Origin: a virus
DNA: 36,864 nt
IMG/VR virus record: IMGVR_UViG_3300025174_000064
Location: 1-36,864 of that record
Direction: 5' to 3' (one strand)
Part shown: in pieces, positions 11,482-35,355 of the stretch
Layout: each line of letters begins with the position of its first letter
Numbering within the stretch: the stretch's first letter is position 1
Notes under the pieces: model-generated
Told to the model about the DNA's origin: nothing
Seen by the model: the letters and a program-made list of their open reading frames with translations, nothing else
The model's database searches: none
Made by a program: the position numbers and the translations under genes

Positions 11482-12105
11482 TTAAGCTTTAGTCGAGGCG
11501 GCAGCATGTCCTTCAGAGGTAACAGTGACATATTTCGAGCCACGCGCCGTTACTCTATCCTTCCTTATTTCTTCAACATTAAAATCTTCACCTAAATGGT
11601 ATCCCATAATTCTACATGCTCGAATAGCCTCATGTCTCGAAATTTTAGAGCCGCCAAAATTCCCTGTAGCTTTAAGATTAAGCGTTTTTGAAATATAAGG
11701 ATTTTTTATTTTAATACAAGGACTAACGTTCCTTTCCGCTTCCACATGCGGGTCCGCCGTCCCCATTTCCATTTGAGATTTGGTAAATAAGCTACCCCCT
11801 ATCTGGTCCCTGAGATTCTCGTATTCATCTGCTATCTCTTTTTTTTCTTCGGCTGTAAAGTCATGCTTGCTTTTATTAATACCATCCAACTTCATTTCCA
11901 TATTTACTAATTCTTGCTTCTTATACATAATATCATTCGGTGGAATTTCATTCCTGGCCATCATTCCTTTTAATGCAACAATCTGATTTTCTAGTTCCAA
12001 TACATGATTTGGCAGCATATATACTGGATATTCAGATAAAATCTCACCATCCAGTTCGTTATTCTTTCTATCTAATGCACCAAAAAAGAAGTAATTTTTA
12101 GCCAT
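11482..12105 (-). CDS. Hypothetical late protein in the head-tail module
   Basis: 207 residues from the ATG at 12105, chosen because AGGAGAG lies nine bases upstream; an earlier in-frame start would overlap the hairpin at 12133-12162. It has a central helical, charged segment (about 35-110) and a C-terminal part with G-S-K-I-S-R-H-E-A-I-R-A-C-R. I do not recognise the family. Position between the capsid-associated protein and the adaptor suggests a neck or head-completion component. Confidence 0.55.
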   Translation of the reverse strand: MAKNYFFFGALDRKNNELDGEILSEYPVYMLPNHVLELENQIVALKGMMARNEIPPNDIMYKKQELVNMEMKLDGINKSKHDFTAEEKKEIADEYENLRDQIGGSLFTKSQMEMGTADPHVEAERNVSPCIKIKNPYISKTLNLKATGNFGGSKISRHEAIRACRIMGYHLGEDFNVEEIRKDRVTARGSKYVTVTSEGHAAASTKA

Positions 12106-12132
12106 AATTTTTTTCTCTCCTAATAATTTGTG

Positions 12133-12162
12133 ATGGAGAGAGGCAAAATTGCCTCTCTCCAT
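12133..12162 (-). promoter_or_regulatory. Perfect intergenic hairpin
   Basis: The arms 12133-12146 (ATGGAGAGAGGCAA) and 12149-12162 are exact inverted repeats separated by two bases. It lies 16 bases after the stop of the 553-residue gene and ahead of the next ribosome site. There is no T-run, so it is more likely an mRNA-stabilising or processing hairpin than an efficient Rho-independent terminator. It may set different expression levels for capsid and tail genes. Confidence 0.7.
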
Positions 12163-12178
12163 AAATAATAAACTAAGA

Positions 12179-13840
12179 TTAAGATACGGTTACGCCAACT
12201 GCTAAAGGTTTATATCTAAGATAGAATGCCCAAGTAGCCGTTGAAGCCGCCCCACCAACTACTGTTGTAATAATTCCTGCAGGAACAATTATTGTGCCTG
12301 GATTAGCAATCAAGTTTGGGCCAGTTACGCTAAATAAAGCTGCCGTTGCCATTGCTGTTCCCGCCAACGTAACAGTAGAACCTGCTACTGCCGTAGCAAG
12401 CGATCCTGTAGCACCCGAAATTGTGCCTGCCGCCCCCTCTGTTGGGTCGGCGCTATATTGAAGCGTTGCTGCGCCGCCATCACCCGTAGTCATACAAAGA
12501 CCAAAGAGGGCTTCAATTCTAATCGGCCCGCCTGTAATCGTAAAGATAGTAGTTCCGTTTGCCAGGGCAGCCGTAGTCGAAACAGCTACTCTTTCCTGCA
12601 AATTAGCTATGCCTTTTGCATAAGCAGAAAGTGATTTTGTAGTCCCAGGGACATAGACACTTGCATCAGTTTTATTGCCAACCACGTCTGCTGCGCTTGC
12701 ATTACTTGTCGCATCTGCGGTTCCAACAGTTAACCAGTTAATGGCTCCCTTCAGATAAGCCATTAATGTTTTAGTGGCAGCGACTACCGTAACGGCAGCA
12801 TCGGTTTTCCTGCCGATTGCATCTCTTATTGTAGTATCTGTGGTAGCATCGGCTGTTGGAGCATCAAAATAACCATCAACAATATCAAGTTTACCTTCAA
12901 TATCGCCAGACAAGATAGTGCCTATCTTTTCGCCCGCCGTAGCATCCGTACCCGTACCGAAGGATTCAAACCATTGCATATCGTTATTGGCTGTCACGTA
13001 CGTAGTTCCACTTGCCACCCTGACCTTTACGTTCGCAGCCGTACCCGTTGACGTTGCCTGCAACAGAATACCAACGGTAGGACTTGCATTCGTATTATTA
13101 ATTATAATGTTTTCAAGAAATGCGTTAATCCATGCCGTTCCGTTTTCTATATTACCAGTTGCGAAATCACCAACAATATCTATGTTTCTCAATACAGGTT
13201 TTGTTGCAGCCGCAACTTGGATATTCGATTGCTTTTGCGTTCCTAACCCATCGCCAACGAAATATTTCCAGCCATCGATTGTTATCCGCGTTGCATTTGC
13301 ATCAGCAACGATACAGTCTGTAGTATCTATGCCAGTGCTATCATACCATTCACTCTCAAACATTTTAAAATCTGCGGCATTTACGTCAATAGGCCCCGTT
13401 AGAGCATCGATACCTGCGGCAAAACGTGGAGTAACGAGAGTAACGTTGGCGGCCTCAATATTCATATCTGCATTAACAGACGTTTTGAAATTGATAGTCG
13501 CCTTTTTATTACCGTTACCAAGAAAAACCACAGTAATACCTGCAATGTCAAACGTCAATGCTCCCGCAGAAGCAACGTTTTCGATATGTCCAGGCAATGC
13601 AAAAACAACGTCACCATTGTTCGCTTTACATCTACCAATAGCATAGTCGATAGTAGCGAATGGATTTAATTTATCCCCATTGCTTGTAGAGTCTGTTCCC
13701 GCTAGCCAGGATTCACCTGAATCTGCTGAGGCTGCGGAACAAACAAAAAATACATTTCCAACTATTACTGATTCGTTAACCGAACCCATAATTGGAACTC
13801 CTCTTGAACTTATCCCATGCGGGAAAGGCGTCATACTCAT
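12179..13840 (-). CDS. Beta-rich capsid-associated structural protein
   Basis: 553 residues, poor in charge and rich in Ala, Thr, Gly and Val. The N-terminal half reads like a right-handed beta helix (a D-K-L-N-P-F-A-T-I-D-Y-A-I segment, then repeated I/V-T-I turns). Two related units follow at about 335-375 (I-R-D-A-I-G-R-K-T-D-A-A-V) and about 383-425 (A-A-D-V-V-G-N-K-T-D-A-S-V), each ending in L/S-x-A-Y-x-K-G. This G-N-K-T-D motif recurs in phage head-associated proteins. The C-terminus is a further beta domain. Position just after the major capsid gene suggests a head decoration or head-fibre protein. Confidence 0.6.
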   Translation of the reverse strand: MSMTPFPHGISSRGVPIMGSVNESVIVGNVFFVCSAASADSGESWLAGTDSTSNGDKLNPFATIDYAIGRCKANNGDVVFALPGHIENVASAGALTFDIAGITVVFLGNGNKKATINFKTSVNADMNIEAANVTLVTPRFAAGIDALTGPIDVNAADFKMFESEWYDSTGIDTTDCIVADANATRITIDGWKYFVGDGLGTQKQSNIQVAAATKPVLRNIDIVGDFATGNIENGTAWINAFLENIIINNTNASPTVGILLQATSTGTAANVKVRVASGTTYVTANNDMQWFESFGTGTDATAGEKIGTILSGDIEGKLDIVDGYFDAPTADATTDTTIRDAIGRKTDAAVTVVAATKTLMAYLKGAINWLTVGTADATSNASAADVVGNKTDASVYVPGTTKSLSAYAKGIANLQERVAVSTTAALANGTTIFTITGGPIRIEALFGLCMTTGDGGAATLQYSADPTEGAAGTISGATGSLATAVAGSTVTLAGTAMATAALFSVTGPNLIANPGTIIVPAGIITTVVGGAASTATWAFYLRYKPLAVGVTVS

Positions 13841-17261: not shown

Positions 17262-19197
17262 TATTCATACCTTCCATCGCAGACCGAGCCTGCGTTTCCA
17301 ATGCAGACTGAGGCACGTTATTTTGATTAGACATAGGCATTCCCGTCATGACGGGCATTTCCTGCCCTTGTGATTTTCCGATAGGTTCTTTGGGATTCAA
17401 TAATTTATCGGCAAAATTAACATATTCATCGCCCATCAATGCCGCTATTTTTGCAAATACGAAATTAACCATTTTCACGGCATCGGGATGTTGCAAATTT
17501 GAAACAATTTGCAATACTTGTTGCCAGTTTTGAATTTTTGCACGTCTACTTACTTCCGTTTCTATTGATTCGCTAACGGGTTTGTAGGTATAATCCAACG
17601 TTGGATTGAAATCGTAAGCCTTATCACCCATTAATTTCTCTGCCGTTTCTTGATTAGCAAATTGATATGTCATTTGCGTTATCATCCAATATAACTCCGA
17701 AAATAACGTATTTTCCTGAGTTAAATAGCGATAATTATTTCTCGTATCACCTCTGGATTCTGCCCCGGCAACCGCGGTTGCCGTTGTGCTAGCAAACAAA
17801 GGCAATGCACCCGTTGTAGTTGGGAACGTTGCGCTAACAGCCTCCTCTTTATTGGTAAAATATTGAGTCTGGGCTAATGCCCCACTAATATCGGACGATA
17901 TTTGTATCTCTTTTAAATCTCTCTCCGGATCGTCAAGCATTATAATGTGTTCTGGCGCAAAATAAATAGATTCATTATCTTCTATTGCGTTTCTTCTGCC
18001 TTTTAGTACCGGCGACATTGCAAATTTCACGCGATCATTGCTCATATTTATATTATCATTAATGGCTATTTGTAATTCTCTCATGCCCTTGCCGTCGCCA
18101 AAACCCGTATCCATTGTAGGATGAATATAACATAAACCTCTGATAATTGGTTTGTATCTATTACCCTCGGCATCCATATAAGGCGCCAATTGAAATCGGA
18201 TTAAATATTTTTTATCACCATGTACTGCATAAGTAATTACCACATCGAACAATTCGGCAATATCAAGCGGCTTGCCCTGTTCGTCAATGCCTGGTCTGAT
18301 TTCCAATGGTTCGCCTAATTGATTACGAGTTATAACGTCAGCCCAATACTTACCATGTCGCTCGAGAATCATCCAATTTTTTATAGGAGTAGAAGGGGAT
18401 TCCGGTTTCTTCTCTTTAGTATAATAGCTGCTCGACTCCGAACCTTTGGTTTCAGTTTGGAAACTTCCCAAATGCGCCAATTTCAACGTATCAAGATTAG
18501 TATAGCCCATTAATTCCTTATTATCTTCAAGTTCCTCAATAGTTGAATCAAATCTAATAATTATCCATTTTTTTTCCTGCAAGCTATAAGTATATTCGTT
18601 TGAAGTAAAAACGTCACGAGGGTCTAGGAGGCCAAAATTAAATCTATCGTATACTAATTTTTGTCCATAAATAGGAATATATCTTTCTGGTTCGTTTTCA
18701 ACTTGCACTAATTCTTGTCCGGTAATTATCTTCTTGCTTTTTTTCTCCCACCAGCAGCGGAAATAAATATGTCCGCAAATATTTTTCATATTAACGGCCC
18801 TTAAACATTTACTATAATAATAAAGATGTTTTTGGTTCAACGTTCTATTAACCAACTCTTTATCGGCTTCCGCCGCAGCGATATCCTTGTCTTTTTCGCT
18901 GGCAACGTATACCTCTACAAACTCACGAGATTTAAAATATTGTCCTACAAACAAGCTCGATTGGACAAGCATATGTGTTAAAAAATCAGGAATAAAAACG
19001 TCTGAATTCCAGTCATAATCCTTCTCCGAACGTATACAATCGAATAAATCCAAATAAGCCTCCTGATCAGCATCCGCCCCCTGTTTATTTGTTTTAGAAA
19101 TTTGGTATTCACTATAAACAAGAGTTGCTAAAGCGTTTTCTATTCTCCTGTTTCCCTCGTCCGCCTTCTTTTCTTCTATTACCGGTTGGTTAATCAT
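17251..19197 (-). CDS. Portal protein
   Basis: 648 residues, a size typical of podovirus portals. N-terminal helices are followed by a D-W-N-S-D-V-F-I-P-D segment, a common early portal feature, a central mixed region with a G-L-L-D-P-R-D-V motif, a long helical stretch (about 370-470), and a Gln/Met/Asn-rich C-terminus. It lies directly after the terminase with ATGA overlap (19194-19197). It forms the dodecameric ring at the head vertex through which DNA is packaged by TerL. Confidence 0.8.
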   Translation of the reverse strand: MINQPVIEEKKADEGNRRIENALATLVYSEYQISKTNKQGADADQEAYLDLFDCIRSEKDYDWNSDVFIPDFLTHMLVQSSLFVGQYFKSREFVEVYVASEKDKDIAAAEADKELVNRTLNQKHLYYYSKCLRAVNMKNICGHIYFRCWWEKKSKKIITGQELVQVENEPERYIPIYGQKLVYDRFNFGLLDPRDVFTSNEYTYSLQEKKWIIIRFDSTIEELEDNKELMGYTNLDTLKLAHLGSFQTETKGSESSSYYTKEKKPESPSTPIKNWMILERHGKYWADVITRNQLGEPLEIRPGIDEQGKPLDIAELFDVVITYAVHGDKKYLIRFQLAPYMDAEGNRYKPIIRGLCYIHPTMDTGFGDGKGMRELQIAINDNINMSNDRVKFAMSPVLKGRRNAIEDNESIYFAPEHIIMLDDPERDLKEIQISSDISGALAQTQYFTNKEEAVSATFPTTTGALPLFASTTATAVAGAESRGDTRNNYRYLTQENTLFSELYWMITQMTYQFANQETAEKLMGDKAYDFNPTLDYTYKPVSESIETEVSRRAKIQNWQQVLQIVSNLQHPDAVKMVNFVFAKIAALMGDEYVNFADKLLNPKEPIGKSQGQEMPVMTGMPMSNQNNVPQSALETQARSAMEGMNNAR

Positions 19198-19844
19198 CTA
19201 TTTGTCCTAAAATACGATGAATGCGGACTTTTCCGTTGTTCCGCATATTCGATTCTCCTGGGCCTGAATCTAACGTCTTTCATTAATGCTTCCAATGTCA
19301 TACAAAAATGACTCCACATTTGCGCTGGCCTATCTTTTTCCAATCGCCAAAGCTGCAATGATTTATAAGTATTAACGCAAGAATTAAATATCCATAACGT
19401 AGGGACCCTGACGGGTATGCCATCTTTTAAAATTTCATTATTAAAAGGCTTCTTACACATCGATGCATTCATCAATCTTTCCCTGACTCTATCCCGCCCA
19501 ACTGTCGCTTTGGTATCCCACGATTCCCACGTTCCACCGGAGCATCTACCCTCTTTCCGATAAGTATTAAAAATATGATTCAGGTCTTCTACAACCGTAG
19601 ACCCCGTATTTGATTGTCTTACCATAGCCAATGGATCGACTAAATTCATTTGAAATTTATAATCGCCGCTCTTGTCGGCAATCATCTCAGCAATCATTTT
19701 CGTAGTGTTTTTTTCAGGCGAAGGGTTTAATTCGCCCCAGACAAAGGCTTCATCGTAGCCCGATAATGAAACAAATATTATGGCCCATGGCGATAATTCA
19801 TGATAATCAATGGCCCTGAAATGCGTCCAGTCGTGGGGTATCAT
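19194..19844 (-). CDS. terL: Large terminase, nuclease part (separate ORF)
   Basis: 216 residues with the RNase-H-like terminase nuclease pattern: R-A-I-D-Y-H-E-L-S-P-W-A (first catalytic Asp near residue 13), M-N-L-V-D-P-L-A (Asp near 69), and a later G-R-D-R-V-R-E-R segment. It lacks any ATPase. Its ATG (19844-19842) directly follows the TAA of the ATPase ORF in the same frame, so removing that stop would yield one TerL of about 578 residues, the usual family size. Either two coupled polypeptides form the motor, the stop is read through, or it is a mutation or sequencing error. Confidence 0.8.
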   Translation of the reverse strand: MIPHDWTHFRAIDYHELSPWAIIFVSLSGYDEAFVWGELNPSPEKNTTKMIAEMIADKSGDYKFQMNLVDPLAMVRQSNTGSTVVEDLNHIFNTYRKEGRCSGGTWESWDTKATVGRDRVRERLMNASMCKKPFNNEILKDGIPVRVPTLWIFNSCVNTYKSLQLWRLEKDRPAQMWSHFCMTLEALMKDVRFRPRRIEYAEQRKSPHSSYFRTNR

Positions 19845-20930
19845 TTAAGCTGCGTCCTTAAAAAATCTAGCTTCGTCGATTACGTGAATACTAGGGTCGA
19901 AACATTTAAATATCCTGCCCGAAATTGCTTTGAATATGCCAAAGAATCGCATGTAAAACACGTCAATATCGTCATATATGCCCAAAATATCGCGTACGTC
20001 TCTATTTTTATACATAGGATTATCGGAAGTCGCCGCCTGGAATACGGCAATGTCTTTTTTATCATTTAATCCAGTTAGTTGTATTTGTGGAACAAACTTC
20101 TTTTCTACTTTTTTATAATATTCTTCGCAAACCGTTTTCGTTCTGTAATAAATTTTTGCTCGTTCGTAAATCATATCGTATAAATATGTAATATCCTCTA
20201 CGGGTGCATAAGTTATAATAATATCTCCATCTTCCATAATAATTCTTGGATATTGCTCGCCAAAAAAATTCTCCGGAGGTTCTTCGTCCATCCATACGCT
20301 CAAACGCTGTACGCCTTTTTGGCTTCGAGCCGTCTGCCCATACGAAACAAACTCTACAATAATATCATCGCCACCAAATGGGTCATATACAATCACAGAT
20401 AGATTCCGTGCTACAATGTCGTTTTTAATCAAATAAGGCGGCAGCCATTTTTTGAATTCAGGATATTGGGTATTTGACACTTCCGCAGACGAACCACCGT
20501 CTTCGTTCGTGTCTTCCGATTGTGTCGGCAATCTTTCAGACGCAAATCTGAATATTCTCGATTTACGTATATGTGGCATTAATTTAGCAGTACAAATCGG
20601 ACATTTCGTCATATTGCCATTATCTACTTTATAAGGCGCAAAAGTATGACCTTCAAAAATATTCGGCATTTTCGTTGGACTGGTCTTGTTATCGCATTCA
20701 AAATATAAAACATTTTTCTTGGCTACTGGATGCTTGCCGAGAATGCGTGCTACATAATTATAAGATACAAGCGCATTCTTGCCCGCCTGATTACCATAGA
20801 ATATGGCTAGCGTCCGCGCAGGCTCGTTTAGAAATTGCAGTGCTTGTTCCGTGCATTGATACGATAAGAAATTCTTAGAATCGTTCAGTTGCTTCATTCC
20901 CCATTCGGGGATATTCTCTAGTCGTAACAT
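19845..20930 (-). CDS. terL: Large terminase, ATPase part (separate ORF)
   Basis: 361 residues. The Walker A-like motif G-N-Q-A-G-K-N lies near 46-52 and the Walker B motif L-S-V-W-M-D-E-E near 210-217, followed by the coupling-motif region (I-I-I-T-Y-A-P). A C-P-I-C pair near 110 sits in a loop inserted between the two Walker motifs. The end, R-I-F-K-C-F-D-P-S-I-H-V-I-D, is the linker that in full-length terminases leads into the nuclease. The ORF then stops (TAA) exactly where the nuclease ORF starts. No clear ribosome site precedes the ATG, so it may be coupled to the gene at 20935-21390, which ends four bases before. Confidence 0.8.
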   Translation of the reverse strand: MLRLENIPEWGMKQLNDSKNFLSYQCTEQALQFLNEPARTLAIFYGNQAGKNALVSYNYVARILGKHPVAKKNVLYFECDNKTSPTKMPNIFEGHTFAPYKVDNGNMTKCPICTAKLMPHIRKSRIFRFASERLPTQSEDTNEDGGSSAEVSNTQYPEFKKWLPPYLIKNDIVARNLSVIVYDPFGGDDIIVEFVSYGQTARSQKGVQRLSVWMDEEPPENFFGEQYPRIIMEDGDIIITYAPVEDITYLYDMIYERAKIYYRTKTVCEEYYKKVEKKFVPQIQLTGLNDKKDIAVFQAATSDNPMYKNRDVRDILGIYDDIDVFYMRFFGIFKAISGRIFKCFDPSIHVIDEARFFKDAA

Positions 20931-26272: not shown

Positions 26273-26595
26273 CGGATTTACCTGGACAAACATAAATTTA
26301 TGTAGTATCATTTCGCTATGTCGGTGGGGCCAGATCTGCATCCAGGCCGACTTTAAATAAAACTGGTGACCAAAGGGCAGTGTCAGACGAACTGACCAAC
26401 GGCATTGAAAGTCGTGATAACACAAGTGGGTTTTAAGTCTCTATCCAAAGTCGATATCGACATCCGATATCAGGGGGGTGAGGGGGGGCTTTTAGGTCTG
26501 GTCGCCGAACTGTTAGTAAAAGACCAGCAACTTTAAAAACTATTATATACAATAGTCTTAATGTTTTTAATCTTTAAAATTGTTTAATATAAAAC
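26273..26595. other. Non-coding stretch with palindromes and G tracts
   Basis: No convincing ORF. It contains small inverted repeats (GTCAG/CTGAC at 26382-26396), a perfect 12-bp palindrome GTCGATATCGAC (26450-26461) followed by a further CGATATC (26465-26471), and then the G-rich run G6-TGA-G7 (26473-26488). A C-T-G-G-T-C / G-A-C-C-A-G inverted pair flanks about 26496-26525. Composition (GC-richer than the neighbours) suggests a structured RNA or protein-binding region rather than random spacer. Confidence 0.4.
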
Positions 26596-27527: not shown

Positions 27528-27632
27528 GCCACTTGCTGACCGAAAATGGACACTTGCTGACCGAAAGTCGCAAACGGTTGACCGATAGAAAGTTACATCG
27601 TGTTTTGGGGCATCAAGGCTGACCGAAAATGG
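27528..27632 (+). repeat. Iteron-like direct repeats (four)
   Basis: Four same-strand repeats with core TGACCGAAA or TGACCGATA: ACTTGCTGACCGAAAATGG (27531-27549), CACTTGCTGACCGAAAGT (27551-27568), GGTTGACCGATAGAA (27576-27590) and GGCTGACCGAAAATGG (27617-27632). The spacing (about 21 bp, then longer) and the adjacency to parS, DnaA-like boxes and AT-rich DNA (27670-27750) resemble a replication origin controlled by a replication protein. An operator cluster for an early repressor is the alternative. Confidence 0.6.
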
Positions 27633-27833: not shown

Positions 27834-28049
27834 ATGAAGCCAGGAGAAGTAAGAATAAACTTGCACAATCTCGACAAGATAGATATTGGCGAATATATAA
27901 TTACGGACGGTAATATACACATTCTGTACAGTCCGTACCTTGATTGTGAGGGTGGTGGAGTAAAAATCAGTACAAGCAAACTCAAGGCAATCTTGAGGAA
28001 TCACTCTGACATAACGTATGCCGACCTGGGCGTAGTGTTATTAAGTTAA
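27834..28049 (+). CDS. First early-operon protein, unknown
   Basis: 71 residues, mildly acidic, beginning M-K-P-G-E-V-R-I-N. The ribosome site AGAAGGAGAAGGAAA is repeated ahead of the next small ORF (28095-28111). It contains Y-S-P-Y-L-D-C-E-G-G-G. The coding DNA already shows inverted repeats (27902-27908 with 27931-27937; 27981-27986 with 27992-27997). No family recognised. Confidence 0.55.
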   Translation: MKPGEVRINLHNLDKIDIGEYIITDGNIHILYSPYLDCEGGGVKISTSKLKAILRNHSDITYADLGVVLLS

Positions 28050-28211: not shown

Positions 28212-28766
28212 ATGATAATAACGGAATGTAAAAGGAGACTCACCAAATCAGGCGACATTGCAGAAGTAAAAAGTCTTTCCTTTTGTGATAGACTGCAAGC
28301 CACAATTAAAAAAAGCAACAATTTCACCGGTACAATGCTCATCCTGGATTGTTCCGGGAGTATGGGGGAAAAGTATGACGGCAAAAGTAAATACGAGTAC
28401 TTACTCGATGCCATAAGAGAGTTAAAATGCGACAAACTGTATTTTAACTCTGTGGTCAGAACGACCCAAATGTATCCGTCAGGCAGTACAAACCTGACGG
28501 CAGCGTTGGAGGCTATCCCTCCAACAACGAAAAAGATTATCTTGGTAAGTGATGGATTGCCAGATAATCAGGATTCCGCGCTAAATGTAGCGGAATCAAG
28601 GAGGATTCCGATCGAAACAATTTTGATCGGAGATGATCCAAAAGGAATTGCATTTATGAAAACCCTATCCGCCGTATCGGGTGGCCGGGTGGCAACAAAT
28701 GTAAAAATAGAAGACTTGCCTACTTTAAAAGGGCAGCTATTGGCGCTGTCAGGAAGTGGCAGATGA
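28212..28766 (+). CDS. VWA-domain protein
   Basis: 184 residues. A complete MIDAS is visible: D-C-S-G-S (Asp46, Ser48, Ser50), Thr93 in S-G-S-T-N-L-T-A, and Asp114 in V-S-D-G-L-P-D. VWA domains bind a partner protein through a metal ion and often act with AAA ATPases, but no such partner is encoded next to it. GGAGGAGG precedes the ATG. Its 3' end overlaps the next gene (ATGA). The coding DNA holds many perfect inverted repeats. Known phage VWA proteins are few; a role in host takeover or assembly is inference. Confidence 0.75.
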   Translation: MIITECKRRLTKSGDIAEVKSLSFCDRLQATIKKSNNFTGTMLILDCSGSMGEKYDGKSKYEYLLDAIRELKCDKLYFNSVVRTTQMYPSGSTNLTAALEAIPPTTKKIILVSDGLPDNQDSALNVAESRRIPIETILIGDDPKGIAFMKTLSAVSGGRVATNVKIEDLPTLKGQLLALSGSGR

Positions 28767-29500
28767 GCATGGCATATACCGCCCACAAGTCATTTTACGT
28801 CAAAAACAGGGTTGGGGAGGTGCAGCAAAAAAAACCTTTTATCCTCACCCAAACCGGAAATCCGATGTCAGATTCCACATTTTATTTTGTGGAATCAAGG
28901 ACAAAAAAGGGCGATTTGCAGATGGAGTTTTTCTCCGTTCGCAAATCGCCACACGGGGTAGTCATCCCCTCCTTAATCCGCAAGGAAGAAAGAAAGGAAA
29001 CCGACTCGATAATCATCGCCTCTCAAGATTTGATGATTGTCGAATCCCTAGAGGATTTAATCCACGACGCCTTCTCTTGGATTAATACGGAATATCTAGG
29101 GAGGGCATATAGGAAAATCGAAAAAATAGTCTTGCAAATGGCCGATGCAGGTCTTTTGCGGCTAAATCAAAACGTGCTCGTAAAAAAAATGAGTACGTTA
29201 AGTAATCTTAAAGAACGGTATTACAAGACAGATGCCGAGGAAGAGGCATCTGTCTGCCGAACTTTTTTCAGCGCTAGAGGACGGACACTAATCGAGGAGT
29301 TACAAGAGGAGTTGCAAATTGATTAAGATTATGATATTAGAGTCAAATACGCTGCAGGAGGCGCAGCGGCAGTATGGTATTCACCGGGCAACCTTTTACC
29401 GGGCGAAAAAAAGAGGGTATTTTTGTCTTGGATATCATAAAAAGGAGATTGATATCCATTGTAAAATAGATGTAGACTTGGCATACAAAATAGCCAAGTC
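28418..29500 (+). repeat. Series of perfect inverted repeats within coding DNA
   Basis: Eleven perfect stems of 8-11 bp with loops of 5-21: 28418-28428/28441-28451, 28476-28483/28493-28500, 28505-28512/28518-28525, 28535-28542/28562-28569, 28572-28579/28590-28597, 28871-28879/28888-28896, 28910-28919/28941-28950, 29057-29064/29078-29085, 29227-29236/29245-29254, 29429-29437/29450-29458 and 29475-29482/29493-29500. Further near-perfect ones: 28608-28617/28621-28630, 29006-29017/29032-29043 and 29171-29179/29191-29199. The stem 29045-29052/29095-29102 encloses another stem. Confidence 0.85.
28763..29326 (+). CDS. Unknown early protein, partner of the VWA gene
   Basis: 187 residues; the ATG overlaps the VWA stop. 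N-terminal half beta-rich (S-D-S-T-F-Y-F-V-E-S-R-T-K-K-G-D-L-Q), C-terminal half helical and charged (L-I-E-E-L-Q-E-E-L). No family recognised; tight coupling suggests it works with the VWA protein. Four stem-forming inverted repeats of 8-10 bp lie inside it. Confidence 0.6.
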   Translation: MSMAYTAHKSFYVKNRVGEVQQKKPFILTQTGNPMSDSTFYFVESRTKKGDLQMEFFSVRKSPHGVVIPSLIRKEERKETDSIIIASQDLMIVESLEDLIHDAFSWINTEYLGRAYRKIEKIVLQMADAGLLRLNQNVLVKKMSTLSNLKERYYKTDAEEEASVCRTFFSARGRTLIEELQEELQID

Positions 29501-29714
29501 AGTGCAGAGAAAATATTTCGCCCGCCTGGATTTGCAGGACGATTTAATCCAAGAAGGAGTCCTAGAGATATTACTAAAAGGAGGTAAGGGTGCCGACCTG
29601 GCAGCGAGTTATGCGAGATTGGCCTCACAAGGAATGAGGGGCTATATCTATAAATTTTGTGGAAGAAATCGCAAAACAAAGTTGACAACATCCTTTGATT
29701 TTGCGAATGTGTAA
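29319..29714 (+). CDS. Sigma-region-2-like regulator
   Basis: 131 residues. An N-terminal helix-turn-helix-like segment (T-L-Q-E-A-Q-R-Q-Y-G-I-H-R-A-T-F) is followed at about 68-85 by A-R-L-D-L-Q-D-D-L-I-Q-E-G-V-L-E-I-L, which resembles sigma-70 region 2. The start is TTG at 29319: GAGGAG lies eight bases upstream, while the ATG at 29331 is too far. It overlaps the preceding stop. Probable middle/late transcription switch of the phage, although it is much shorter than a full sigma factor and has no obvious region 4. Confidence 0.55.
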   Translation: MIKIMILESNTLQEAQRQYGIHRATFYRAKKRGYFCLGYHKKEIDIHCKIDVDLAYKIAKSVQRKYFARLDLQDDLIQEGVLEILLKGGKGADLAASYARLASQGMRGYIYKFCGRNRKTKLTTSFDFANV

Positions 29715-32820: not shown

Positions 32821-34060
32821 TCTGAATAAATTTACACCCTTGTAGCAAGTCGAAACGGAACTCCATTTGATTTGGATTTTGGTCGGTACGCCAATTTTTT
32901 GCTTTAATTATTTTACACTTTCCATATTCTTTCCAAGCTCGTTCAAGAGTAATATAAAGCCTTGCTTTTTCTAAAGTAAAATCTGAACCCCTTCCAAGTT
33001 CTTCGCCCTTCTTTTTTTGGATAGCAATAATTGCTATCCCTGTTTTGAGTTTATCGTATATCTTCTTAATATCCGTGCCAATCGTATAAAAGTTGTCATA
33101 TATTTCTAAGTAATCTATGATATTTAGGTCATCTGGCCGTATAACGTGGTTAAATTCAAACGATCTTTCTATAACCTTAAATTTCCAGCTACGCAATGGA
33201 AATTGTGAGCCATCCTCACTTTTAAATTTGGAAAGTCTTACCTTGAACTCCTGCGCCCCCATTTCGGAGGAAAAATAATAAACATCATGTTGATTCATAT
33301 TCATTTTCGCTACATTCAGCAGGAACCCGGTTTTCCCAGCGTTACTTGAACCAGCTATCATTATAATATTTTTTGGATATATTTTAACATAAGAATCTAT
33401 GCTAAATGGTAATTTAAGAGGATATTCACTATCAACATCAGCCGATAACCAATCAATAGCCTGTTCATCGCAAATTATCCTCTTATATACATCATCGCGG
33501 CAATTTGTTTTTTCAATGTAATTTCCATCTCTAAGGCGCTTCAGTATTGTGCGTCTATTTGTTTTTTCCCGCTCAGAATTAATAAATAAATCCTTATCAA
33601 GTTGAAAGGTATTCCAGCTACCTTCTGTGTTGTCTATCCAATCCTTAATTTTTTCGGATAAATTAGCCTTTGCCACGCAATGTAACGGTTTTGCCACGTC
33701 ATAAGCTTCTTCAATTGCTTGTATTGATTCATTGATTGTTTTGCGCCTTCTGCTATACTCTAAAAGCTTGTCCAATAAGTAGATAAAGCTTTGCTTAGTA
33801 CTTATAAAAACTTCTTCCATGTCTATTATTTCTGGCATTAAATCTTTAGCTTCGATTGTCACGGTTGTCACGCTAGCCGCTTCTTGGCGCTTATGCAATT
33901 CTACGATTATATCGTATATACGTTGATGTGACATCTTGTAAAAATCTATTGTTGATACAGACTCTAGGCTTATCGATATATATTCATTTTTTTGCAACAG
34001 ATACGCGAGATATGTTTTTTCAACTTCGGGGTCATTTGGCGGTACTTTGCTTGAGATCAT
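32816..34060 (-). CDS. DnaB-like replicative helicase
   Basis: 414 residues from the ATG at 34060, chosen for AAGGAGG seven bases ahead. The N-terminus resembles the DnaB N-domain (P-P-N-D-P-E-V-E-K-T-Y-L-A-Y-L-L). A middle segment (about 160-200) looks like a winged helix (R-R-T-I-L-K-R-L-R-D-G-N-Y-I). The RecA-like core follows: Walker A G-S-S-N-A-G-K-T (about 237-244), then Y-Y-F-S-S-E-M and A-I-I-A-I-Q-K-K-K-G. It unwinds DNA at the fork. No polymerase is encoded nearby, so host replication proteins would be used. The inserted middle segment is unusual for DnaB. Confidence 0.7.
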   Translation of the reverse strand: MISSKVPPNDPEVEKTYLAYLLQKNEYISISLESVSTIDFYKMSHQRIYDIIVELHKRQEAASVTTVTIEAKDLMPEIIDMEEVFISTKQSFIYLLDKLLEYSRRRKTINESIQAIEEAYDVAKPLHCVAKANLSEKIKDWIDNTEGSWNTFQLDKDLFINSEREKTNRRTILKRLRDGNYIEKTNCRDDVYKRIICDEQAIDWLSADVDSEYPLKLPFSIDSYVKIYPKNIIMIAGSSNAGKTGFLLNVAKMNMNQHDVYYFSSEMGAQEFKVRLSKFKSEDGSQFPLRSWKFKVIERSFEFNHVIRPDDLNIIDYLEIYDNFYTIGTDIKKIYDKLKTGIAIIAIQKKKGEELGRGSDFTLEKARLYITLERAWKEYGKCKIIKAKNWRTDQNPNQMEFRFDLLQGCKFIQT

Positions 34061-34178
34061 CAGCGGCCTCCTTGACAATCAACTTCTTTATTTCCTCAGC
34101 TTTTGCGACAAGCTTGCATCTTCTGATTCCAATTCTATGAAATAAATCAAGCAGGCTTTTAATTTTTTCCTCACTCAT
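34032..34178 (-). CDS. Small helical protein upstream of the helicase
   Basis: 48 residues from the ATG at 34178 (GGGGTAAAC ahead): M-S-E-E-K-I-K-S-L-L-D-L-F-H-R-I-G-I-R-R-C-K, all helical with basic centre. It overlaps the helicase start by 29 bases. The long 5' hairpin (34196-34239) precedes it. A helicase loader or regulator is possible, without motif support. Confidence 0.45.
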   Translation of the reverse strand: MSEEKIKSLLDLFHRIGIRRCKLVAKAEEIKKLIVKEAADDLKQSTAK

Positions 34179-34195
34179 GTTTACCCCTGAAATGA

Positions 34196-34239
34196 GCAAA
34201 CCCGTATCGGCTGGGGTCAACAACCAAATACGGGTTTGC
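34196..34239 (-). promoter_or_regulatory. 12-bp hairpin whose loop complements the ribosome site
   Basis: GCAAACCCGTAT (34196-34207) and ATACGGGTTTGC (34228-34239) pair perfectly around a 20-base loop. On the transcribed strand the loop contains GACCCC, complementary to the GGGGT of the ribosome site just downstream, so a pseudoknot hiding the start is possible. Candidate translational regulator of the helicase mRNA. Confidence 0.55.
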
Positions 34240-34319
34240 GTGAGAAGGCTTATAGAATTAGCATTGACCCTGCTAATTATTTCCCCCATTTTAGCACAAC
34301 GATTTATTTTGTCAATAGG

Positions 34320-34357
34320 AAAAAACGCCAGGCTGGTTAAATTCCTTCACCAGCCTG
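34320..34357 (-). terminator. Rho-independent terminator (minus strand)
   Basis: On the minus strand CAGGCTGG (34357-34350), a 13-base loop, and CCAGCCTG (34036-like position 34036 is not involved; arm 34329-34336) are followed by GCGTTTTTT (down to 34320). A standard terminator that ends transcripts of the methyltransferase gene before the helicase operon. Confidence 0.7.
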
Positions 34358-35295: not shown

Positions 35296-35355
35296 TAAGG
35301 GCGGGGAGATAACCATTGATAACCCAGCCCCGCCCTTAATTGTCAATTAATTTTT
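35296..35355 (+). promoter_or_regulatory. Leader hairpins, possible attenuator
   Basis: TAAGGGCGGGG (35296-35306) and CCCCGCCCTTA (35328-35338) form a perfect 11-bp stem with a 21-base loop holding two GATAACC copies. TTAAT/ATTAA (35336-35350) forms a small second stem that shares bases with the first and is followed by TTTTT. Mutually exclusive stems ahead of T's suggest attenuation. Confidence 0.55.

Follow-up and report, generated by a model that had tools for sequence, protein, structure and literature searches.

The early operon and its hairpins

The window, the whole 36,864-nucleotide stretch of DNA analysed here, is the 36.9-kb contig IMGVR_UViG_3300025174_000064 from an uncultivated tailed DNA phage, whose proteins match a major head protein and a terminase small subunit in PHROGs and a DnaB-like helicase in Pfam. 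Leftward late genes reach about 26.2 kb and a rightward early operon starts at 27.8 kb, 'early' and 'late' being labels assigned from gene content and position. The terminase large subunit is encoded by two ORFs (19845-20930 and 19194-19844) joined by TAAATG; in one relative (L006) a single ORF spans both parts, and in another terminase relative (L067:8915-12808) the ORF, of 1297 aa, contains two long insertions resembling inteins or intervening sequences of another kind. At the left end of the contig, an ORF at 37-657 consists of AEGFYENGSLRYRYYY-type repeats that are MORN-like.

The hairpins span three genes of the early operon, and the overlaps among these genes were confirmed (Table 1). 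The six hairpins of the vWA-domain gene all lie in its 3' two-thirds, its first 200 nt being free of them. For the 187- and 131-aa proteins encoded downstream, searches of phages, plasmids, and related records gave no relatives other than those of one near-identical sister contig, and AlphaFold models built without an alignment have low confidence (47.5 and 35.2, respectively). The similarity of the 131-aa protein to sigma-70 ECF factors (E = 0.001) falls far below the cut-off; judged from its sequence, this protein is a possible phage transcription factor. The repeats 5' of the operon, possibly regulator-binding sites, carry a motif, (TT)GCTGACCGAAA, that also occurs in 56 other contigs, which served here as a background sample only. 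The density of GANTC sites in the hairpin region is about double that of the whole window.

Table 1. Genes, upstream repeats, and hairpins of the early region (positions in the window)
Feature	Positions	Strand	Description
Upstream repeats	27533-27628	+	three copies of (TT)GCTGACCGAAA, 5' of early operon; copies 1 and 2 are 21 bp apart
First early gene	27834-28049	+	71 aa; no family; mild structure only
vWA-domain gene	28212-28766	+	184 aa; motifs DxSGSM and VSDGxPDN
Hairpin	28418-28451	+	11-bp perfect stem; 14 pairs in RNA counting G-U
Hairpin	28476-28500	+	8-bp perfect stem
Hairpin	28505-28525	+	8-bp perfect stem
Hairpin	28535-28569	+	8-bp perfect stem; sense RNA extends pairing across a bulge
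Hairpin	28572-28597	+	8-bp perfect stem; similar to 28871-28896
Hairpin	28606-28632	+	near-perfect; 12 pairs in sense RNA, 2 of them G-U
Orphan gene	28763-29326	+	187 aa; without relatives; hairpin-rich
Hairpin	28871-28896	+	9-bp perfect stem
Hairpin	28910-28950	+	10-bp perfect stem and nested 7-pair stem
Hairpin	29003-29046	+	near-perfect over 15 positions; mismatches one T-G, one C-A
Hairpin	29057-29085	+	8-bp stem in window; perfect 11-bp stem in sister contig
Hairpin	29171-29199	+	near-perfect; 11 pairs, 2 of them G-U
Hairpin	29226-29255	+	11-bp perfect stem
131-aa gene	29319-29714	+	weak HTH and sigma70-ECF similarity; three perfect hairpins
Hairpin	29429-29458	+	9-bp perfect stem
Hairpin	29475-29500	+	8-bp perfect stem
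Stem	29525-29553	+	6-bp stem in window; perfect 8-bp stem in sister contig
Hairpin	29669-29706	+	8-bp perfect stem

The original prediction, made by eye, held that eleven perfect stems, at least three near-perfect stems, and one nested pair crowd into early coding sequence. The recount agrees with it in each respect: the interval 28418-29500 contains exactly eleven perfect Watson-Crick stems of 8-11 bp, whose loops measure 5-21 nt, accompanied by three near-perfect stems and the nested pair, and a twelfth perfect stem lies outside that interval. The whole window has 41 perfect stems, 29 of them in the remaining 35.5 kb. The hairpin with the nested pair is the most stable single hairpin among those folded (-27.8 kcal/mol, sense). 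Three further stems (12, 8, and 9 bp) form a smaller cluster at 34196-34357, in and beside an 85-aa ORF on the minus strand (34032-34289), and the intergenic segment 35255-35338 holds two strong stems, including an 11-bp GC-rich one at 35296, that are possibly a terminator.

The stems share no common consensus, which argues against their being the operator of one protein, and an Rfam scan gave no match near gathering scores. The sole similar pair, 28572-28602 and 28871-28901, is 74% identical over 31 nt; the two copies lie in different genes, have their outer arms and 3' flank in common (GATTCC...GGAATCAAGGA), and encode similar peptides of the form DSxxxxxES, so that a hairpin copied between genes is possible on sequence grounds. 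The palindromic elements of Rickettsia (mentioned in PMC6649704) are likewise palindromic DNA within coding sequence but form a repeated selfish sequence family, whereas the phage stems lack a consensus. The consensus among copies that a mobile palindromic element family would have is not seen in the phage stems, only this one pair being alike.

Size and specificity of the stem excess

Expected stem numbers come from shuffles of the synonymous codons of each gene that leave both its protein and its codon usage unchanged. The three genes together have 12 stems against 1.38 expected, about a ninefold excess (Poisson P ~3e-8), and each contributes: 5 against 0.28 in the vWA gene, 4 against 0.72 in the 187-aa gene, and 3 against 0.38 in the 131-aa gene. 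Shuffled controls thus did not reproduce the stem count, and the claim that this density occurs nowhere else in the window also stood, the remaining genes being far below it under the same shuffles. The chance rate assumed originally, about one stem per 3.4 kb, is right as arithmetic at equal base frequencies, but the rest of the window actually has about 0.8 per kb (29 stems in 35.5 kb), which puts the enrichment at about 9- to 11-fold and not at 30-fold. For the first early gene, also said to carry short stems, only a mild effect was found (one stem of at least 7 bp against 0.38 expected; sense folding z -2.75).

Chance clustering, or an artefact of assembly or amplification, has to be considered because the choice of region was made by eye, in a 37-kb window that belonged to a large scan. 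Against chance stand the regional P of ~3e-8 and the absence of any 1.3-kb stretch with at least 7 stems from 0.95 Mb of other, mostly viral, DNA; against an artefact, a separate IMG/VR assembly has the same hairpins. We regard this explanation as highly improbable. The vWA gene of the window is the strongest among 580 ORFs drawn from the window, from terminase- or vWA-related records, and from MW202444, and only 1 of 1305 control ORFs has a comparable, weaker gene-level excess (L123 4629-5126; 5 against 0.28, P = 1e-5). The latter is the gene directly 3' of a capsid-like ORF in an unrelated viral contig, and its five stems indicate that dense coding hairpins are not confined to early genes.

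The excess is limited to stems of at least 8 bp with loops of at most 25 nt (12 against 1.4). With the same loops, stems of 6-7 bp are at expectation under codon shuffles (7 against 8.6), nor is there any excess with loops of 26-60 nt. The stem-length excess is therefore all-or-none at 8 bp. Perfect arms are favoured over imperfect ones, although stems containing G-U or A-C are still in excess to a lesser degree. The amino-acid sequences themselves would allow no more stems than shuffled proteins do (potential stems by codon register: 25 against 23, 84 against 73, and 147 against 142), and the stems thus arise from synonymous choice. The codon register of the stem arms was uninformative, since other genes have the same third-to-third preference in their stems (27:17:12), and so do shuffles.

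The absence of an excess at 6-7 bp counts against graded selection on stability, which predicts otherwise. Over-representation of only perfect stems of at least 8 bp with loops of at most 25 nt is instead what would favour template-switch (quasipalindrome-correction) mutation, in which the replicating polymerase folds back and copies one arm of an imperfect inverted repeat onto the other, so that the repeat becomes perfect. If this process acted alone, the region would be a mutational hot spot that requires no function, and stems would accumulate at synonymous positions because the proteins tolerate silent or mild outcomes only. Published work documents both this mechanism and the hairpins that it produces (PMC8794818), and it has been offered as a tentative explanation for perfect inverted repeats in mitochondrial genes (PMC6649704). 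The mitochondrial coding palindromes of Nematomorpha resemble the phage region in having many perfect inverted repeats in conserved genes in an all-or-none manner, but their arms reach 284 bp and are scattered, whereas the phage arms are 8-11 bp long and lie in one operon (PMC6649704); the nematomorph combination of long perfect arms across many genes was not found in the phage region. Restriction to one operon of one phage is not what template switching predicts.

Strand asymmetry, start codons, and relatives

Local minimum free energies, with pairs limited to 60 nt, exceed those of codon-preserving shuffles on both strands: -408 kcal/mol against -280 +/- 12 for the sense strand (z -10.6) and -357 against -267 +/- 12 for the antisense strand (z -7.4). 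That the antisense strand and the DNA also fold far beyond shuffles is a point against selection on mRNA and one in favour of a DNA-level function, in which the inverted repeats would form hairpins when the DNA is single-stranded or supercoiled and would act in replication or packaging, for instance as origin hairpins for priming or assembly, or be dispersed binding sites. A process symmetric with respect to DNA would, however, lift both strands equally, and the difference between sense and antisense (-51.4 against -13.1 +/- 11.0 in shuffles; z -3.5) was reached by 0 of 400 shuffles, which favours the mRNA strand. For comparison, 23 other genes of the window have a mean z of -0.26 for this difference (sd 1.05). 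Two of the three genes, the first and the second (z -2.1 and -3.0), account for the asymmetry, and the third goes the opposite way (+1.58). Counts of G-U- and A-C-containing stems are no different from those in shuffles and do not separate the strands; the mismatches beside perfect stems likewise showed no difference between G-U and A-C. The lack of a G-U and A-C contrast and the opposite asymmetry of the third gene weaken the mRNA reading, and we consider the strand evidence for mRNA to be moderate.

No hairpin overlaps positions -60 to +100 around the three start codons (P = 0.00015 under random placement, the windows having been chosen post hoc), and two other window sizes, likewise picked after seeing the data, gave P = 0.0112 and 0.00125. 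Neither this avoidance of starts nor the sense-strand asymmetry is predicted by template switching, and both favour mRNA over a role of the DNA itself. The regulator- or initiator-like repeats just upstream, at 27533-27628, speak for a DNA-level role; its opponents are the lack of a common sequence among the stems, with one similar pair only, and the lack of such a region in terminase-related phages, and we think it quite unlikely. Among the roles proposed in the original prediction, structured mRNA is accordingly favoured, and binding sites and folded DNA are disfavoured by the strand asymmetry and start avoidance.

In the vWA relatives (~30% identity) the hairpin pattern is absent, and the structure therefore does not belong to the vWA family as such; the family was rejected as carrier of the pattern, the vWA gene of the Manatee Spring phage MW202444 having zero stems. 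Close to where its early region starts, that genome has seven perfect stems within 0.7 kb (11535-12313; L007 1836-2614), mostly intergenic or within doubtful ORFs. Terminase-related phages have no comparable coding stretch, the cluster in L067 being largely AT-rich non-coding DNA.

The sister contig

In the collections searched, the sole other contig with both orphan genes is IMGVR_UViG_3300025159_000753, which is also the only match to a helicase query. Across 22.2 kb, five isolated substitutions and two single-base indels separate it from the window, together with a 24-difference patch and a gap of 142 bp. The patch (24 differences in 118 bp at 12494-12611, within the gene at 12179-13840) looks like recombination with a divergent allele, the sister version having no second copy in the window; the gap corresponds to 142 bp of the window, 26335-26476, missing from the sister.

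Four of the five isolated substitutions fall inside the hairpin region, that is, within 1.3 of 22.2 kb (P = 5.6e-5), in an unrooted comparison of two genomes. Three of the four affect stem positions, and two of these single-base differences give complete stems in the sister. At 29077 (T in the window, G in the sister; silent) the 8-bp stem of the window corresponds to a perfect 11-bp one in the sister, and at 29552 (A in the window, G in the sister; silent) the 6-bp stem corresponds to one of 8 bp. At 28450 (C in the window, T in the sister; non-silent) the G-C pair of the window is G-U in the sister, a pair kept in sense RNA only, and the substitution at 29241 lies in a loop. Stem completion is expected from ~0.7% of random substitutions (P = 3e-4, assuming that the changes arose in the sister lineage).

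These substitutions bear on both main readings. The G-U pair in sense RNA and the two silent pair-adding changes were counted for the mRNA reading. The clustering of four of the five substitutions in the region, two of the four completing stems, is also what template switching would produce: template-switch hairpins are perfect stems made or repaired in one event, which matches the stem-completing differences of the sister, although they were described in RNA genes by ancestral reconstruction (PMC8794818) and the phage comparison is one of two genomes, unpolarised. Had the substitutions arisen in the window lineage, they would have broken stems, and the cluster may have been imported, given the apparent recombination with a divergent allele at 12494-12611 in the same pair. 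Template switching alone is, in our judgement, a possible but tentative account of the region.

A possible folded early messenger

The observations support a nucleic-acid-level pressure acting on the operon. That the pattern implies selection, as originally claimed, holds insofar as it exceeds the effects of protein, codon usage, and composition; the wording is too strong because the all-or-none lengths, the lack of a G-U and A-C contrast in stems, and the sister substitution cluster leave a template-switch origin in play. We give an even chance to selection on mRNA structure as the main cause of the stem excess. Under such selection, synonymous codons in the three gene bodies would be chosen so that the polycistronic sense mRNA is kept folded as a chain of ~14-16 short stable local hairpins, with the regions around the three start codons left open. 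The hairpins would form in the cell, where their main effect would probably be to lower the translation output of the three ORFs, and the sparsely translated early mRNA may be shielded from ribonucleases. The two causes are mutually compatible: perfect stems may arise by template-switch mutation and then come under selection, which keeps those useful in mRNA. The more specific proposal that this segment of the early operon is a folded messenger, serving to set translation or to withstand a ribonuclease defence of the host, with stems renewed by template switching faster than they decay, is in our view rather unlikely.

Related phenomena are known in other systems. In E. coli operons, ORF-wide mRNA structure predicts translation efficiency (PMC5318159), and as in the phage, structure extends over the bodies of polycistronic ORFs and varies between neighbouring ORFs (Burkhardt et al. 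2017, PMC5318159); there it is a genome-wide property measured by DMS-seq, whereas the phage hairpins are extreme, local, discrete, perfect, and predicted only. Positive-strand RNA viruses with genome-scale ordered RNA structure (for example PMC7642675, PMC3695492) likewise have coding sequences under folding pressure beyond composition, with many local stem-loops, but in RNA genomes rather than in a 1.3-kb DNA segment read as mRNA. If folding is selected in the early operon, a DNA phage constrains three overlapping protein genes together for mRNA shape, a constraint on coding genes usually discussed for RNA viruses, and the operon would be a system in which to test the effects of ORF-body structure on translation or ribonuclease resistance. 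If the stems are instead mutational, the region would be a natural hot spot for template switching within phage genes, one of them conserved.
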